6,608 nucleotides of DNA, taken from NCBI GenBank assembly GCA_026985515.1, contig JALSQH010000249.1:1-6608 (forward strand). Direction: 5' to 3'. The stretch comes from a bacterium. Its GTDB lineage: Bacteria > JALSQH01. Under the pieces are notes generated by a model that did no database searches, was not told the origin of the DNA, and saw only the letters and a program-made list of their open reading frames with translations. The position numbers were made by a program, and so were the translations under genes. Positions within the stretch are counted from its first letter, which is position 1. Each line of letters starts with the position of its first letter. This document shows, one piece after another, positions 1-6,608 of the stretch.

Positions 1-1330
1 CAATCGATTCTGTTTCAGGAATAACTCCTTTTTTTGTCCTGACATTTCCCCTTAAATTTCCTCCATTTAAAAGAGAAAACCGGGAATTGTACCGATCTAT
101 GTTGATCTGATCTCCAAGTATCACAACAAGTCTCCCCCCTCTGGATACCCATTCTGAGAGTGAAGATACTTCCCTTGCAGAGAGATCAGGTATATTTGAA
201 AGAAAAATCACATCATAATCATCCGGACTGACTCTTTTGAATTCACTGTAAGTGATATTGTGAACAATGCTGCCGGGGGAGAAGTTTTCCATAAGTTTCA
301 AGGCGGTGTATAGATAATAGGTACCTCCTTCGGTGGGTATCGGTTCAGGATCTCCTTCAACTATAAGTACCCTCAAATTTCTTCCTTGAAAAAGGGTAAC
401 AAAATATCTATTATCCTCCTCAAAATTATCATCTGGTAGCTTCAGATAACCCTCAAAAACCTGAGAAGTATCACTCCAGTAGATACTCTTTTTTATTAAT
501 CCTGAATTGGAAAATTTAACCACGCTTCTTGTCAATGTTCTCTTACCCTTCCTCACCTCAACAACCTCTTTTTCACCAGATATTCCACACCCTCGAAATG
601 TAAAATCCCCTCTCATTACTCTTACCCCATGGAGAAAAACTGTATTAACACTTCCACTTACGATACCGGCATTCCTGATGGGTTCAGAAACTTTCTTAAA
701 AATAAGTTCCTGATAATCTGGAAGAGCTTCAGGAGAAAAGCGATTTCTCTGAAAATCAGATACAATAACAACCGGAATCTTCACACCAAAGCGGGAAGAA
801 ACAATTTCCACTGTTCTTGAAATGCAATTGTTGAGAACCTCTGTTTTCCAGACAGGTTTTCTGCTGGAAAGAAACTGAATAAGTTTAACTGGATTGTCAA
901 TTTTGAAAATATTACTCCCACAGAGGTAGAGAAGGGAACTTGAATCGGCCGGCAGTTTTCTCAATATCCCGATAGCTTCTTTAACTCCCCTCTCCCAGAA
1001 AGTTTCTCCTTTACCTGCCTTCATACTCACAGTGTCATCTACAATAATTGCCACAGAATCTGTTACACTCCCGGTATGGGCAGTCTGAACAGTTTTGTAG
1101 GGATGAAAAAAGAGGAAAAGGAGAAACAAAAAGATCAGAACCCTCAGAGTGACAACAATTATTTCCTTAATCAAAATACTCCTTTTAATTTTGCGGTAAA
1201 TTTTTCTGATCAAAAAGAGAGTGGAGTACTCCACCTCCTCAGGTTTCTTTCTGAGAAAGAAATGAACCAGAAGTGGAATAATAATGGCAGCAGCAATGAG
1301 AGAAAGCAGGGGTGTCCTCAGGTACTCCAT
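1..1330 (-). CDS. BatA-like membrane protein with vWA domain and GATase1-like C-terminal region (partial, 3' end outside window)
   Basis: The frame is open from an ATG at 1330-1328 to the left edge (443 codons seen, no stop). An in-frame TGA three bases upstream of that ATG (1336-1334) excludes an earlier start. The N-terminus matches the BatA-type double-transmembrane domain: helix 1 at about residues 8-25, a basic stretch, EVEYSTLFLI at 38-47, then helix 2 at about 57-75. A vWA-like domain follows, with strand AIIV and MIDAS-type D98-D-T100-V-S102, and a later VVIVSD192 strand. Thr replaces the usual first Ser of DxSxS. Residues 319-326 (LRVLIVEG), 370-379 (DDYDVIFLSN) and 391-407 (a W-x-x-x-GG-R-L-V-V-type strand) look like a Rossmann/GATase1-like fold, as in the long BatA-vWA proteins of several phyla. 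Expected role: membrane partner of the MoxR ATPase encoded two genes upstream. It overlaps the upstream DUF58 gene by 13 bp and has no well-placed Shine-Dalgarno, so translation is probably coupled. Confidence 0.88.
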   Translation of the reverse strand, partial: MEYLRTPLLSLIAAAIIIPLLVHFFLRKKPEEVEYSTLFLIRKIYRKIKRSILIKEIIVVTLRVLIFLFLLFLFFHPYKTVQTAHTGSVTDSVAIIVDDTVSMKAGKGETFWERGVKEAIGILRKLPADSSSLLYLCGSNIFKIDNPVKLIQFLSSRKPVWKTEVLNNCISRTVEIVSSRFGVKIPVVIVSDFQRNRFSPEALPDYQELIFKKVSEPIRNAGIVSGSVNTVFLHGVRVMRGDFTFRGCGISGEKEVVEVRKGKRTLTRSVVKFSNSGLIKKSIYWSDTSQVFEGYLKLPDDNFEEDNRYFVTLFQGRNLRVLIVEGDPEPIPTEGGTYYLYTALKLMENFSPGSIVHNITYSEFKRVSPDDYDVIFLSNIPDLSAREVSSLSEWVSRGGRLVVILGDQINIDRYNSRFSLLNGGNLRGNVRTKKGVIPETESI

Positions 1331-2208
1331 TGTTCAGAAAGTATCCTCACTATTATACCGGCAGGATCTTCACCGGCTATATGAAGGAAGTAGAAAATTC
1401 CTCTACTTCTTACAAACTCTTTTACATGGGCAAGAAACTTTTCCACCTCTCTTTTAAATCTTCTTTTCATTGAAAAGGGAAAAATTTCCATCTCTTCAGA
1501 TGTTTCCATCGACTTTAAAACAACACGACCTGAATACTCCAGTGAAATTTCATAGGGATGAAGTACCTGAACAGCAACTGGAGTGATATCCAGCAATCTG
1601 AGTGAACCATATTTTACAAAAAATTCTTCTATGCCTTCCTCCAGGAAGTCACCAATAATAAATAATCTGCCCGGTGAAGAAAAGTAGCTCATAGGATCAA
1701 ATTCAAGTTTCGTAAAATTATCTGCCCCGTTACCTTTCCATTCCTCAACATTCTTCAGCCAGATAAAAAAATCTCCCTCACTCCTGATGGGAATTGTTCT
1801 TAAAATTTTTCCTTCCGAAACGGGTAGAAGGTAAATCCTGTTCTGATTTTTAAGATGAAAGTAAATGATGGAAAAGGCGATTATCAGAGCTTCCTGAAGC
1901 TTCGTCTTACCCATGAATTCAAAATTCATAGATCCACTCATATCGATCATTATGTAAATGTTCAGCCTTACCTCCCCTTCTCTCTCTTTAACATAAAATT
2001 TCTCCCTTTTCCCGTATAGTTTCCAGTCAATGGATCTTATATCATCACCGGGAGAGTACTCCTTATGCTCAAAGAATTCAACTGTACCTCCTCTTCTTCG
2101 TGCCTTGTAAATCCCTCCCTCACTCCCTCCTTTAACCCCAGTCTGCGAAACTCTCACGGGAGGGATCTTTCTTAAAATTTCCTGAACCTGCTCAGAAATT
2201 ATCCCCAT
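1318..2208 (-). CDS. DUF58 domain protein (vWA-like, MoxR partner)
   Basis: This 296-residue protein has the DUF58 hallmarks. Residues 54-69 carry the signature GDDIRSIDWKLYGKRE, the conserved R-x-x-D-W followed by basic residues. After it comes a vWA-like core with strand IYIMI and MIDAS D89-M-S91-G-S93 fully intact, Thr166 as a candidate second-loop ligand, and a third-loop D187 in LFIIGDF. No transmembrane helix or signal peptide is evident, so it is probably cytosolic or membrane-associated through partners. DUF58 proteins are classically encoded next to MoxR AAA+ ATPases and BatA-type vWA proteins, exactly as here. The family is thought to act with MoxR in metal-dependent protein assembly or remodelling; the client is unknown. 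The ATG lies 2 bp after the MoxR stop (TGATAATG), with only a weak Shine-Dalgarno, which suggests translational coupling. Its 3' end overlaps the next gene by 13 bp. Length is normal for the family. Confidence 0.93.
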   Translation of the reverse strand: MGIISEQVQEILRKIPPVRVSQTGVKGGSEGGIYKARRRGGTVEFFEHKEYSPGDDIRSIDWKLYGKREKFYVKEREGEVRLNIYIMIDMSGSMNFEFMGKTKLQEALIIAFSIIYFHLKNQNRIYLLPVSEGKILRTIPIRSEGDFFIWLKNVEEWKGNGADNFTKLEFDPMSYFSSPGRLFIIGDFLEEGIEEFFVKYGSLRLLDITPVAVQVLHPYEISLEYSGRVVLKSMETSEEMEIFPFSMKRRFKREVEKFLAHVKEFVRSRGIFYFLHIAGEDPAGIIVRILSEQWST

Positions 2209-2210
2209 TA

Positions 2211-3212
2211 TCAGGACTTCTTTCTCACACCACTATCAAAAATTTCCTCAATAATATCCGAGGTGGTGATACCTTCAGACATACCCTGAAAATTCAGAAT
2301 TATCCTGTGCTTGAGAGATGGCACTGCAATCTCCCTCACATCATCAATGGATGGGGTCACCCTGCCAGACATAAGGGCTATAACTTTGGAAGCAAGGGAG
2401 AGAGCCTGACCTCCCCGGGGACCTGCTCCATAGAGAACATACTTTTTAACCGATTCTACACTTGATGTTGCCGGCCTGGTTTCTCTCACAAAAGTGGTAA
2501 TAAAGTCAAGAATAACCTCGGGTAGAGGTAGATTGAGTATCAGTTTCTGATACTTCAAAATATCCCCGGGTGACAGAACCTTCTGCAGTTCAGGCATTTC
2601 CCTTGTTGTGGTTGTTCGGATGATTTCCTTTTCTTCACCATAGTCGGGATAATCAAGATCTATCTCCATCAAAAATCTATCAAGTTGAGCCTCGGGAAGG
2701 GGATAGGTTCCCTCCTGTTCAATGGGATTCTGCGTTGCAAATACATGGAACGGCTGGGGAACACTGTATGTTTTACCGTAAACTGTCACAATTTTTTCCT
2801 GCATTGCCTGAAGCAAAGCGGACTGGGTTTTTGGTGGAGATCTGTTTATCTCATCGGCGAGGAGAATATTTGTGAAGATGGGACCTTTCACAAACTTGAA
2901 CACTTTGCTCCCCGTAACTCTATCTTCCTCAATAATCTCTGTACCGGTTACATCAGAAGGAAGAAGATCAGGGGTAAACTGAATTCTGTTAAACTCAAGA
3001 TCAAGAACTCTGGCAAGGGTAGAAACAATCAGAGTTTTTCCAATTCCGGGTACTCCCACGAACAATCCATGGCCACCTGAAAATAGAGTGGCAAGGAGGA
3101 GCCTGATGGTCCTTTTCTGACCCACCACTACCTTTTCCATTTCAGCGATTGTTTTTTCAATCTTTTCCTGAAAACCGATTACCTCTTTCTCAAGCTCCGT
3201 AGTATCAATCAC
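2211..3212 (-). CDS. MoxR-family AAA+ ATPase
   Basis: This 333-residue protein shows all expected AAA+ (AAA_3/MoxR) motifs: Walker A GVPGIGKT at 53-60, Walker B ILLADE at 116-121 followed by INRSPPKTQ (family-typical, arginine-bearing), sensor 1 ATQNP at 159-163, LPEAQLDRF at 172-180, and a sensor-2-like GAGPRGG at 263-269. A C-terminal helical lid includes LKHRI at 300-304. An N-terminal helical stretch (about residues 6-28, EKEVIGFQEKIEKTIAEMEK) precedes the VVGQ box. The start is GTG (3212-3210), preceded by GGAGG in the last codons of the upstream gene, so the site is well supported. The upstream stop is one base away. MoxR ATPases act as cytosolic, ring-forming chaperone-like machines that work with vWA proteins; the two following genes encode such partners. 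All catalytic motifs are intact, so it should hydrolyse ATP. The specific client cannot be read from sequence. The name refers to the family, not to the methanol dehydrogenase gene itself. Confidence 0.97.
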   Translation of the reverse strand: MIDTTELEKEVIGFQEKIEKTIAEMEKVVVGQKRTIRLLLATLFSGGHGLFVGVPGIGKTLIVSTLARVLDLEFNRIQFTPDLLPSDVTGTEIIEEDRVTGSKVFKFVKGPIFTNILLADEINRSPPKTQSALLQAMQEKIVTVYGKTYSVPQPFHVFATQNPIEQEGTYPLPEAQLDRFLMEIDLDYPDYGEEKEIIRTTTTREMPELQKVLSPGDILKYQKLILNLPLPEVILDFITTFVRETRPATSSVESVKKYVLYGAGPRGGQALSLASKVIALMSGRVTPSIDDVREIAVPSLKHRIILNFQGMSEGITTSDIIEEIFDSGVRKKS

Positions 3213-3213
3213 T

Positions 3214-4731
3214 TCAACCTCCCAGAATTTTCATAATTTTCTTTTCCCTTTCAAGACCGGCCTGATCCCCTTTGAGGCTATATAGTTTTATTAAACCTCT
3301 GTGAATAAGAGGATCAAAGGGATTGAGGTCAAGACCCTCTTTAAATTCCCTCTCAGCACAATCAATTTTCTTCTTCTTCAGACATATCATCCCCAAAAGA
3401 GTGTGCATGCTCTCATAATCAGGCGAGTACTTCAGTGCAAATTTAAGTATTTTCTCCGCTTCATCAACCTTTCCCGCATGAAAAAGGGTAAAACTGTACT
3501 TGTAGTAAAGAAGGGGATCATACTTTTTACCCGCATCTATGGCCTTTTTAAACTCGTAGGCAGCTGAAACAAAGTGCAGTCGATCCTCAAGCATTTCTCC
3601 AAGTCTGAAATACTTTTCATCAATGTTTTTCCTTCTCAGCTCCACTCTCTCAGAGGGTTGATAATTGAGGAACACAAGGGGCTGACTTTTAATATAGGCC
3701 TTCCATTGTTGCAGAAAATCTTTCAACCCCCTGAACCCTATTTCTTTAACCATCTTGTCGCTATTGCCGTGATACTTCACCGAGGCCATTATCAGTTTTC
3801 TCAGGAGTGGATAACCTCCTTTGTTCACAATCATCCTCACCATACTCAAAACTTCTGCAAAGGCAAGAGTAACCCTCTCAGCAGAACCAAGTTTGGCAAA
3901 GGAGGGAATCATTTCCCTGAAGGTCACAAAATCATTCTTTTTTATTGCCCTTAAAAGGGCACTCTGAGCAAGAGGAGATAGTTCCCGGGGACCTTTCCTT
4001 CTCCATCTCTGCTCCTCTGCTTTGGCAACTCCCTCCTGTAGCCACAGGGGAGCATAATTGTGCGTCATCCTGGTCAAAAAGTAGTGTACCATCTCATGAT
4101 TGAGGGTATCGCGCCACCTGTAACCATACAGGGTTGCCTTTGGGGAAGTTATCATAATTTTGTTGTAGTTGCAGAGTGCAATTGTTCCGGAAGTTTCAAT
4201 ATCTTTTCTCGTAAGAGTGGAAACTCTCATGAAGTCTTCGTAAAAGGGATAAATCTCCACTCTTATTTTTCCTGGAGGGAAATACCCCAGATCATCTCCC
4301 ACAGCCTTCCATGCCTTTTCAAGAGTTTCTTCAGCCATATCAAGTAAAATCTCATCCTTGCCAGGTGCATAGTAGATAACAAAGTGAGAAGTCTCCCGTT
4401 TTTTGAAATCTTTTGTCTCCTCGTAAGTATTTTTAATAAGGTTGTAAAGATTTATTACTTCCTCACTGTCAAGTTTACGTACAGCGGTTTCAATTTCTCT
4501 AAGTGCCTCTCCATACTCCCCTTCATAAAAAAGTAGATGGGCCTTCAGGTAGTGATAAAAGGGATTATCAGGTGGAAAGTTTCTCAATTTTCTCTCTGCG
4601 TTATCCACATCCCATGCGTATATTAGATGTTCAATTTCCCTTGCCTTTCTGATGGTTAGAAAAATATTTCCCTGAGGTACCGAGAAAAAATCTGAAATAA
4701 AAAAAGATGTTAGGAGAAGGAATTTAAACAT
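3214..4731 (-). CDS. Exported TPR protein with gluzincin (peptidase MA-like) metalloprotease domain
   Basis: The 505-residue product begins with a short hydrophobic segment (about residues 3-17), probably a signal peptide or N-terminal anchor; the cleavage site is unclear. Residues about 57-86 form a TPR-like helix pair. A peptidase MA-like domain starts near 115 (SHFVIYYAPG) and carries H212-E-M-V-H216 with E233 in LQEG: an HExxH-x16-E gluzincin zinc site with all three predicted ligands and the catalytic Glu213. The C-terminal third (about 374-500) is another TPR array, with repeat-like segments near 374-400, 407-436 and 441-470 (for example YSPDYESMHTLLGMICLKKK). TPRs usually bind proteins, so a substrate-recruiting or scaffolding protease in the envelope is plausible; the substrate is unknown. 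The ATG is 6 bp after the cNMP-gene stop and has only a GA-rich, weak Shine-Dalgarno. The stop codon lies 1 bp before the MoxR GTG, and the final codons supply MoxR's GGAGG. Confidence 0.9.
   Translation of the reverse strand: MFKFLLLTSFFISDFFSVPQGNIFLTIRKAREIEHLIYAWDVDNAERKLRNFPPDNPFYHYLKAHLLFYEGEYGEALREIETAVRKLDSEEVINLYNLIKNTYEETKDFKKRETSHFVIYYAPGKDEILLDMAEETLEKAWKAVGDDLGYFPPGKIRVEIYPFYEDFMRVSTLTRKDIETSGTIALCNYNKIMITSPKATLYGYRWRDTLNHEMVHYFLTRMTHNYAPLWLQEGVAKAEEQRWRRKGPRELSPLAQSALLRAIKKNDFVTFREMIPSFAKLGSAERVTLAFAEVLSMVRMIVNKGGYPLLRKLIMASVKYHGNSDKMVKEIGFRGLKDFLQQWKAYIKSQPLVFLNYQPSERVELRRKNIDEKYFRLGEMLEDRLHFVSAAYEFKKAIDAGKKYDPLLYYKYSFTLFHAGKVDEAEKILKFALKYSPDYESMHTLLGMICLKKKKIDCAEREFKEGLDLNPFDPLIHRGLIKLYSLKGDQAGLEREKKIMKILGG
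3216..3223 (-). promoter_or_regulatory. Shine-Dalgarno of the MoxR gene inside the peptidase 3' end
   Basis: The last codons of the peptidase gene read (minus strand) CTG GGA GGT TGA, followed by one base and then GTG. The GGAGG (about 3222-3218) sits 5 nt before the GTG at 3212 and decides for this non-ATG start. Stop and start are one base apart, so the genes are probably translationally coupled. Confidence 0.7.
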
Positions 4732-4737
4732 TTTTTC

Positions 4738-5181
4738 TCAAATCAACGCAAGGATATTTGTTTTTTTCAATCTTTCCGCAAGAGAATCTATCATGGCTCT
4801 GTAAATTTTTATGGCTATATCTTTATCCCTTGAGAGAATCCTCTCAAGATCCTCTCGCGAGAGGACAAGCAATTCAGTGTTATCCCTTGCAGTTACAGTG
4901 GCTATCCTCTCACCTTCCTTAAAAAGAGCAATCTCACCAAAATGATCCCCCTTCCCAAGAATGGCTATCAATCTCTGCTTATGTGTGGAGGGGTCTTCAG
5001 CATAGACATTAACTGAACCACTTTTAACAATAAACATCTCTTTTCCTTTCTCACCACTTTTCACAATGGTTTCACCACTCTTAACCTTCCGATGCTTAAG
5101 AACCTTGCTGAACTGCAAAAGTTCCATTGTGGTAAGATCACGAAACATAAAAACATTTTTTAACAATTCAATATTTTCCAT
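4738..5181 (-). CDS. Stand-alone cyclic-nucleotide-binding domain protein
   Basis: This 147-residue protein is essentially one Crp/Fnr-type cNMP-binding beta-roll (about residues 6-125). It contains FRDLTTMELLQF at 13-24, the glycine-containing GETIVKSGEKGKEMFIVKSG turn region at 36-55, and a phosphate-binding cassette F81-G-E-I-A-L86 followed by R92-I-A-T95. Glu83 and Arg92 are the residues that normally hold the ribose and cyclic phosphate, so ligand binding looks possible. A C-terminal helix (about 118-142) ends the protein and no helix-turn-helix follows, so it is not a classical CRP regulator. It is more likely a regulatory subunit that acts through protein contacts, perhaps on the operon's other products (inference). 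No nucleotide cyclase lies in the window, and the ligand could be cAMP, cGMP or something else. The ATG has a strong Shine-Dalgarno (GGGAGGAA) and the gene is the first of the operon. Close relatives in databases are often annotated simply as cyclic-nucleotide-binding proteins. Confidence 0.93.
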   Translation of the reverse strand: MENIELLKNVFMFRDLTTMELLQFSKVLKHRKVKSGETIVKSGEKGKEMFIVKSGSVNVYAEDPSTHKQRLIAILGKGDHFGEIALFKEGERIATVTARDNTELLVLSREDLERILSRDKDIAIKIYRAMIDSLAERLKKTNILALI

Positions 5182-5183
5182 TC

Positions 5184-5191
5184 TTCCTCCC
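5184..5191 (-). promoter_or_regulatory. Shine-Dalgarno of the cNMP-binding gene
   Basis: GGGAGGAA on the minus strand is a near-perfect anti-16S match placed a few bases before the ATG at 5181. It fixes the start of this gene and is the strongest ribosome-binding site in the operon, consistent with its being the lead cistron. Confidence 0.8.
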
Positions 5192-5200
5192 TTTTACTTA

Positions 5201-5228
5201 ATTGTAATTGAAAAATGAATCTTTTCAA
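5201..5228 (-). promoter_or_regulatory. Predicted sigma70-like promoter of the five-gene operon
   Basis: On the minus strand, TTGAAA (5228-5223, 5 of 6 to TTGACA) is followed after 16 bp by TACAAT (5206-5201, 5 of 6 to TATAAT). A start about 7 nt downstream, near 5194, would leave a leader of about 13 nt containing the Shine-Dalgarno of the cNMP gene. It is the only clear promoter-like pair I found upstream of the operon, and the four junctions downstream are too short to hold promoters outside the genes. This is prediction from consensus only. Confidence 0.55.
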
Positions 5229-5238
5229 AGAATATGCC

Positions 5239-5274
5239 TATACCAGATTTATTCCTGATTTACGATGTGGTATA
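5239..5274. repeat. 7-bp inverted repeat in the divergent intergenic region
   Basis: TATACCA (5239-5245) and TGGTATA (5268-5274) are exact reverse complements separated by 22 bp, and the right arm overlaps the extended -10 box. The left arm read on the minus strand (TGGTATAGG) also resembles a weaker extended -10. A direct repeat GATTTA (5246-5251 and 5257-5262, 11 bp apart) lies between the arms. It could be an operator or chance; short AT-rich repeats are common. Confidence 0.35.
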
Positions 5275-5276
5275 AT
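5268..5276 (+). promoter_or_regulatory. Extended -10 promoter of the AAA/PDDEXK gene (leaderless candidate)
   Basis: TGGTATAAT is a perfect extended -10 (TGn plus TATAAT). Any -35 is weak (TTTATT at 5248-5253 with a 17-bp spacer), as is usual with an extended -10. The box ends 6 nt before the ATG, so the expected first transcribed base is at or within a base or two of the A of the ATG (5283). No purine-rich Shine-Dalgarno lies between. Confidence 0.65.
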
Positions 5277-5282
5277 TAAATC

Positions 5283-6608
5283 ATGAAAAAACTCCCCATC
5301 GGCATCTGGGATTTTGAAGAGATCCGCACCGGTAACTACGTTTATGTGGACAAAACGGAATTTGTTTACATACTTGTAACTGAGGGCAAGTATTACTTCC
5401 TCTCCCGCCCAAGGAGATTTGGTAAAACCCTTTTAGTTGATACTCTCCGCAGATTATTTGAGGGTAGAAAAGAGTTATTTGAGGGTCTTTACATCTATGA
5501 TAAGTGGGATTGGGAGAAGAGATTTCCAGTGGTTAAAATAGATTTCAGCAAAGGTGATGTTCAGAGTGTTGAGGCACTGAGAGAAGTTATAATTGAGAAT
5601 ATCCGGGATGTTAAAAAGAAATACGATGTTGATTTTCCAGATAGTGATCAGATGGGGTTGCTATTAAAGAGGCTTGTTGTTTCGCTTTTTGAGAAATACA
5701 ATTCACAGGTTGTAATTCTCATAGACGAATATGACAAGCCGATCCTTGATAATATCACTGAAAAGGAACTGGCAAGGAAATTGAGAAGGATTCTTGCAGA
5801 TTTTTATGGAGTGATCAAGGGGCTTGATGAGTATGTGAGGTTTGTATTTCTGACGGGGGTGAGTAAGTTCAGTAAGGTGAATCTCTTCAGTAAATTGAAT
5901 AACCTGAATGACATAACCATTGATAAAAGATATTCAACAATTTGTGGTTATACAGAACGTGAACTTGATATATACTTCTCCGAATTTCTTGCAGGTATTG
6001 ACATGGATGAAGTAAGACAGTGGTACAATGGATATTCATGGTTGGGAGAAAGTGTTTACAACCCATATGATATTTTACTGTTCATTGATAAGGGTTTCAC
6101 ATTCAAAAATTACTGGTTTGAGACGGGAACTCCCACATTTTTAATTGAGTTGTTAAAAGAGAAGAGATATCACATTCCCTCTCTTGAAAATGTGGAGGTA
6201 ACAGAAAATATTCTGGGAAGTTTTGATGTGGATTATATAAAGGTTGAGGCTCTGATGTGGCAGACGGGGTATCTGACCATAAAAGGTGCAAAGAGAGTGG
6301 GTATCAGGACCTACTATATTCTTGGTTATCCAAATTATGAGGTGAAGATGTCGTTAAATGATGTGATACTTGATTATTTGGGTGATATAGAGGAGAACAC
6401 CAAGAGCAGGCTTGGAGAGGAGTGTTACAATTCCCTTGCCTCTGGAGATGTGGAGAAATTTATTGAAGTGATAAAGAGACTACTTGCCTCACTGCCATAC
6501 ACCTCCTATACGAAGAATGAGATAGCGAAGTATGAGGGCTACTACATCAATATCATCTATTCCTTTCTCGCTTCCCTTGGACTTGAGATGGTTGCGGAGG
6601 ATGTTACA
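5283..6608 (+). CDS. AAA-ATPase-like / PD-(D/E)XK nuclease superfamily protein (partial, 3' end outside window)
   Basis: The frame runs open from ATG 5283 to the last base (442 codons). The N-terminus (LPIGIWDFEEIR...YVYVDKTEF, residues 4-27) is the conserved opening of the AAA-ATPase-like family (PF09820 type), which supports this start. A degenerate but family-typical P-loop SRPRRFGKT lies at 41-49, a Walker B VVILIDEYDKP at 143-153, and the sensor-like strand FVFLTGVSKFSKVNLFS at 187-203. Further family motifs are WYNGYSW at 247-253, NPYDIL at 260-265 and YWFETGTPTFLIELL at 277-291. At 418-421 EGYY begins the usual PDDEXK_9 nuclease-like C-terminal domain, whose catalytic residues would lie beyond the window, so nuclease activity cannot be judged. 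Cellular role is unknown for most members; many genomes carry several copies, and an association with mobile or defence loci has been suggested but is not shown here. No Shine-Dalgarno precedes the ATG; an extended -10 box ends 6 nt upstream (leaderless candidate). Codon use resembles its neighbours, with no obvious sign of recent transfer. Confidence 0.93.
   Translation, partial: MKKLPIGIWDFEEIRTGNYVYVDKTEFVYILVTEGKYYFLSRPRRFGKTLLVDTLRRLFEGRKELFEGLYIYDKWDWEKRFPVVKIDFSKGDVQSVEALREVIIENIRDVKKKYDVDFPDSDQMGLLLKRLVVSLFEKYNSQVVILIDEYDKPILDNITEKELARKLRRILADFYGVIKGLDEYVRFVFLTGVSKFSKVNLFSKLNNLNDITIDKRYSTICGYTERELDIYFSEFLAGIDMDEVRQWYNGYSWLGESVYNPYDILLFIDKGFTFKNYWFETGTPTFLIELLKEKRYHIPSLENVEVTENILGSFDVDYIKVEALMWQTGYLTIKGAKRVGIRTYYILGYPNYEVKMSLNDVILDYLGDIEENTKSRLGEECYNSLASGDVEKFIEVIKRLLASLPYTSYTKNEIAKYEGYYINIIYSFLASLGLEMVAEDVT

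Follow-up and report, generated by a model that had tools for sequence, protein, structure and literature searches.

We observed that a TPR protein with a metallopeptidase-like domain (PepMA/TPR, hereafter PepMA) is repeatedly encoded beside MoxR and, judged from sequence, is a genuine conserved partner of this ATPase that recurs in many unrelated bacterial families. We propose, with a probability of about 0.6, that the cluster to which both belong is an RL3499-3502-type MoxR/vWA envelope-maintenance operon, a putative function, to which an extracytoplasmic zinc peptidase with TPRs and a DUF4175 protein have been added. The cyclic-nucleotide-binding (cNMP) gene at the head of the cluster in the genome studied here is probably a local addition.

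The window, that is, the whole stretch of DNA analysed, is a complete contig of 6608 bp (G000:C249) and carries five minus-strand genes in the order cNMP, PepMA, MoxR, DUF58 and BatA. Since the window is the whole contig, the array ends early, inside BatA. The features are as follows.

5283-6608, plus strand: divergent AAA-ATPase_like gene (PF09820, Pfam), cut by the contig end
5201-5228, minus strand: weak sigma-70-like promoter match, TTGAAA-N16-TACAAT, upstream of the cNMP gene, 10/12 of the consensus
4738-5181, minus strand: single-domain cNMP-binding protein, 147 aa, first in the array; PF00027 (cNMP_binding), 83.1 bits
3214-4731, minus strand: PepMA/TPR protein, 505 aa; PF13485 (Peptidase_MA_2) and TPRs
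2211-3212, minus strand: MoxR AAA+ ATPase, 333 aa, GTG start; PF07726 (AAA_3), 204 bits, and PF17863 (AAA_lid_2)
1318-2208, minus strand: DUF58 protein, 296 aa; PF01882, 85 bits
2-1330, minus strand: BatA-type membrane vWA protein, N-terminal 443 aa, no stop codon, cut by the contig end; PF07584, 33.5 bits

The coordinates give successive junctions of 6, 1, 2 and -13 bp, in agreement with the original description of a five-gene array with junctions of -13 to 6 bp, and the domain assignments made there for the five genes agree with the Pfam scan. The PF09820 gene lies outside the module and forms its upstream border in the window; this family is multicopy, with eight matches in the same genome and four in a genome of the same family (G001). 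Four promoter-like sites were found versus 2.3 expected in shuffled sequences, a count near chance. Genes were called with a simple ORF and HMM procedure, which may lose or mis-start genes on GC-rich contigs.

The usual order of the conserved cluster is DUF4175-PepMA-MoxR-DUF58-BatA-DUF4159-GATase-like/vWA, and four of the window's five genes are members of it. The five-gene array first described is real but covers only part of the cluster; DUF4175, DUF4159 and the GATase-like/vWA gene had been overlooked. DUF4175 lies directly upstream of PepMA in most loci, while DUF4159 and the GATase-like/vWA gene lie downstream of BatA or, in one phylum (that of G138), upstream of DUF4175. The only DUF4159 match in the window's own genome is found at the start of contig C157, between a C-terminal fragment of BatA and a GATase-like gene, with overlaps of a few bases at the junctions of these three genes. 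The BatA fragments of the window and of C157 are complementary in alignment; as the ends of the two contigs do not overlap, their contiguity is something we infer, and C157 is probably contiguous with the window contig. Downstream of the GATase-like gene, C157 (L171) also carries two transporter-like membrane genes (3720-4880 and 4877-6097) with 4-bp overlaps, the second of which is a Na+/H+ exchanger (PF00999). A DUF4175 relative (197 bits with the cluster's DUF4175 profile) sits at the end of another contig, C213, so that in the window the cNMP gene occupies the usual DUF4175 slot.

The association of PepMA with MoxR extends well beyond this genome. A first locus set came from searching 59 genomes and 18 named contigs for relatives of MoxR and included seven other genomes with PepMA directly upstream of MoxR. 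A peptidase-domain profile run on 290 genomes gave a match in 84, of which 27, the window's own genome excluded, reached an E value of 1e-50 or better and were fetched and annotated. Two of these 27 loci are cut by contig ends, and among the 25 informative genomes that are left MoxR is the next cluster gene after PepMA in 18. A divergent PepMA locus (G055) likewise has MoxR next. PepMA is present in all three genomes of one small phylum (that of G041) and in 16 of 18 genomes of another (that of G138), and MoxR follows PepMA in each of 15 further loci fetched from these two phyla. In total, MoxR lies directly downstream of PepMA in 33/40 informative orthologue loci. The earlier proposal had been open to refutation by a peptidase gene that neighbours the trio in this genome only; these counts instead make PepMA a member in other genomes too. 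In one of the 18 genomes counted above (G128), a short frame was called on the opposite strand between PepMA and MoxR. PepMA and MoxR distances correlate with r = 0.56, a value reached in none of 10,000 permutations, and the two trees share clades; this correlation is partly owed to shared species history.

The coupling is not obligatory, since PepMA lies away from MoxR in 7/25 informative genomes of the broad sample. Many MoxR/DUF58/BatA loci, such as those of Latescibacterota (L028-L030), have no PepMA. No PepMA was found in G001, the only genome of the same phylum that was compared, an absence that is not firm at about 80% completeness; this genome carries a Bat-like MoxR locus (L061) instead. 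Two PepMA relatives (L133 in G213 and L134 in G072) have no neighbouring MoxR and are followed in both cases by genes of similar size, which is possibly a second, MoxR-free context for PepMA.

The PepMA protein consists of N-terminal TPR-like helices, a metallopeptidase-like domain with HEMVH (residues 212-216) and E233, and C-terminal TPRs. In the window protein the TPRs score above the cut-off and Peptidase_MA_2 just below it (32.2 versus 32.4 bits); the same profile matches 7/7 aligned orthologues, at best with 1.7e-14. H212, E213, H216, E233 and G234 are invariant in the alignment of these seven, and the HExxH and downstream EG motifs are also present in the remaining intact orthologue loci that were tabulated; the motif tabulated for L125 and L128, two entries that are split or truncated, is not the active site. 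E233, the candidate Glu ligand, lies 17 residues past the second His of HExxH, and PepMA thus has the HExxH and downstream Glu that mark the Peptidase MA clan (gluzincins) at the sequence level. A single-sequence AlphaFold2 prediction modelled the TPRs and gave a pLDDT of about 30 for the peptidase domain. The best 60 matches of the PepMA profile in the PDB are TPR or repeat proteins with no peptidase among them, and the peptidase domain alone matched only two designed repeat proteins, which we treated as noise. A scan of genome contigs with PepMA as query found no relative.

The TPRs could be all that matters, with PepMA acting as a scaffold and its peptidase fold inactive. Bat operons regularly include TPR proteins, for which a scaffold role has been proposed (PMC3557215; PMC5700661), but orthologues have kept HExxH and the downstream Glu, beyond what scaffolding requires, and we consider a scaffold-only protein unlikely. 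The conserved putative zinc ligands instead fit the envelope proteolytic arm that had been suggested for the system. The description of PepMA as an exported HExxH/TPR protein held for both sequence elements, whereas export is only plausible from the window protein, whose N-terminus is hydrophobic yet falls under the 19-residue threshold for a TM segment. Signal peptides are clearer, as judged by eye, in orthologues such as that of L059, and PepMA is probably exported.

The remaining proteins have the features expected of a MoxR/vWA core. MoxR carries Walker A (GVPGIGKT at 53) and Walker B (ILLADE at 116) motifs, its nearest solved structure being 2r44, and the DUF58 protein has a MIDAS-like DMSGS at 89; neither contains a TM segment. 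The N-terminus of BatA contains two TM segments joined by a basic loop, a MIDAS-like DDTVS lies at 98, and the positive-inside pattern of these segments places its vWA domain outside the cytoplasm. The vWA domain of the related BB0173 is periplasmic by experiment, as reported in PMC5700661.

In the mechanism that we propose, MoxR hexamers and the soluble DUF58 vWA protein would act together in the cytoplasm and spend ATP on remodelling or gating two membrane proteins, BatA and GATase-like/vWA; their vWA domains are predicted to lie on the periplasmic side. In that compartment, PepMA together with DUF4175 would combine a zinc peptidase with a TPR scaffold and process or clear envelope proteins. 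The output would be envelope maintenance, by homology with the Rhizobium RL3499-RL3502 operon.

Next to this conserved core, we characterized the cNMP protein at the head of the array. As originally described, it lacks a DNA-binding domain, with cNMP_binding the sole Pfam domain in its 147 aa, and a CRP/FNR-type transcription factor is ruled out by the missing C-terminal HTH. Its phosphate-binding cassette, GEIALFKEGERIATV, is intact by motif scan, and in the PDB the protein is related to CRP and to the regulatory domains of PKG and PKA, so that it may plausibly bind a cyclic nucleotide. However, a search of the sequence around 43 other PepMA loci (~696 kb; up to ~10 kb on each side, less where contigs end) turned up no cNMP match, and among the loci compared a cNMP gene adjoins PepMA in this genome only. 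In the G049 locus, no cNMP gene was seen between PepMA and a pheT-like gene. For the 882-aa frame that neighbours the best cNMP homologue (G049:C295), no tie to the cluster could be made. The earlier proposal was also to be refuted by a cNMP gene beside the trio in this genome only, and for the cNMP gene this was the outcome in every genome that allowed the comparison; the suggested ligand-gated machine is therefore not a general property of the module. Proteins with cNMP domains are common in the sampled genomes, with 11 matches in the window's own, and single-domain cNMP genes occur in multiple copies and in varied gene contexts. Larger cNMP-domain proteins of 489 aa (L145, G000:C10) and 731 aa (L154, G001:C192) were also observed.

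In the DUF4175 position, the cNMP protein may bring a cAMP/cGMP input to the cluster or may merely be a passenger on a shared promoter. As a passenger, it would have reached the cluster head when DUF4175 became separated and would have an unrelated role of its own. That its slot is the one of DUF4175, a relative of which now lies on another contig, points this way, as do the many copies and varied neighbours of such genes, but the same-strand 6-bp junction suggests co-transcription with PepMA, and we give the passenger reading roughly even odds. Alternatively, a cyclic nucleotide bound to the lead protein could gate MoxR, and hence the vWA/peptidase complex, in this organism. The close junction, the intact cassette, the missing HTH, which speaks against a transcription factor, and the two class III cyclases encoded in the same genome are all consistent with gating; set against the lack of cNMP matches around the other PepMA loci and the abundance of cNMP domains in the genome, which makes a chance neighbour plausible, they leave it quite improbable. 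A seven-part envelope machine in which cytoplasmic MoxR/DUF58 controls a periplasmic zinc peptidase/TPR protein, itself under cyclic-nucleotide control in this lineage, is in our view very unlikely.

MoxR/vWA operons are widespread, and we know of no envelope substrates established for them. An envelope-maintenance operon with a probably exported metallopeptidase beside MoxR would offer a concrete candidate output, envelope proteolysis. In addition, DUF4175, DUF4159 and the GATase-like protein acquire a common context, and a conserved link (the peptidase) can be told apart from a local one (cNMP). A search of the open literature found no paper linking MoxR with DUF4175 or DUF4159, or with cNMP and TPR proteins together; for MoxR and peptidase MA it gave a single review, on mycobacterial NlpC/P60 proteins.

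Several known systems share parts of this architecture. NorQ/NorD and RavA/ViaA each pair a MoxR ATPase with a vWA cofactor that remodels target complexes. These two-protein systems serve metal insertion or respiratory complexes and, to our knowledge, include neither an exported peptidase nor a set of membrane vWA proteins. MoxR-vWA ternary conflict systems have the MoxR-vWA couple in common with the cluster, and some are described by Kaur et al. 2020 (PMC7159879) as carrying peptidase, cNMP-cyclase or cNMP-binding domains. The window MoxR scores 31 bits with bpMoxR versus 204 bits with AAA_3, and the Pfam scan of the cluster proteins showed no beta-propeller, VMAP, iSTAND, trypsin-like or caspase-like domain; we rejected a conflict system on this poor bpMoxR score and the lack of effector domains.

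The bat operons of Bacteroides fragilis (BatI), Borrelia and Leptospira share MoxR, DUF58, a BatA-type vWA protein and TPR proteins with the cluster. They include BatD/SH3 parts, and no metallopeptidase domain is described for their TPR proteins, whereas the cluster has PepMA, DUF4175, DUF4159 and the GATase-like protein in their place; BatD and the SH3/TPR protein BatE, the strict BatI markers, were found neither in the window nor among the C157 cluster genes. In Rhizobium leguminosarum, the RL3499-RL3502 operon studied by Vanderlinde et al. in 2011 reportedly encodes DUF58 and membrane vWA/GATase-like proteins after MoxR. For mutants of this operon, PMC5700661 cites defects in cell shape and envelope. 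Alphaproteobacterial loci (L034 and L040-L042) have MoxR without an adjoining PepMA, unlike the cluster described here. The RL3499-3502 and Bat-type operons and the window have the same core, with MoxR, DUF58 and a BatA-type vWA gene adjacent on one strand, and the DUF4159 and GATase-like vWA genes that follow BatA in the RL3499-3502 type are present here on the contig that probably continues the window. In conclusion, with PepMA and DUF4175 added, the cluster is a variant of the RL3499-3502/Bat core.
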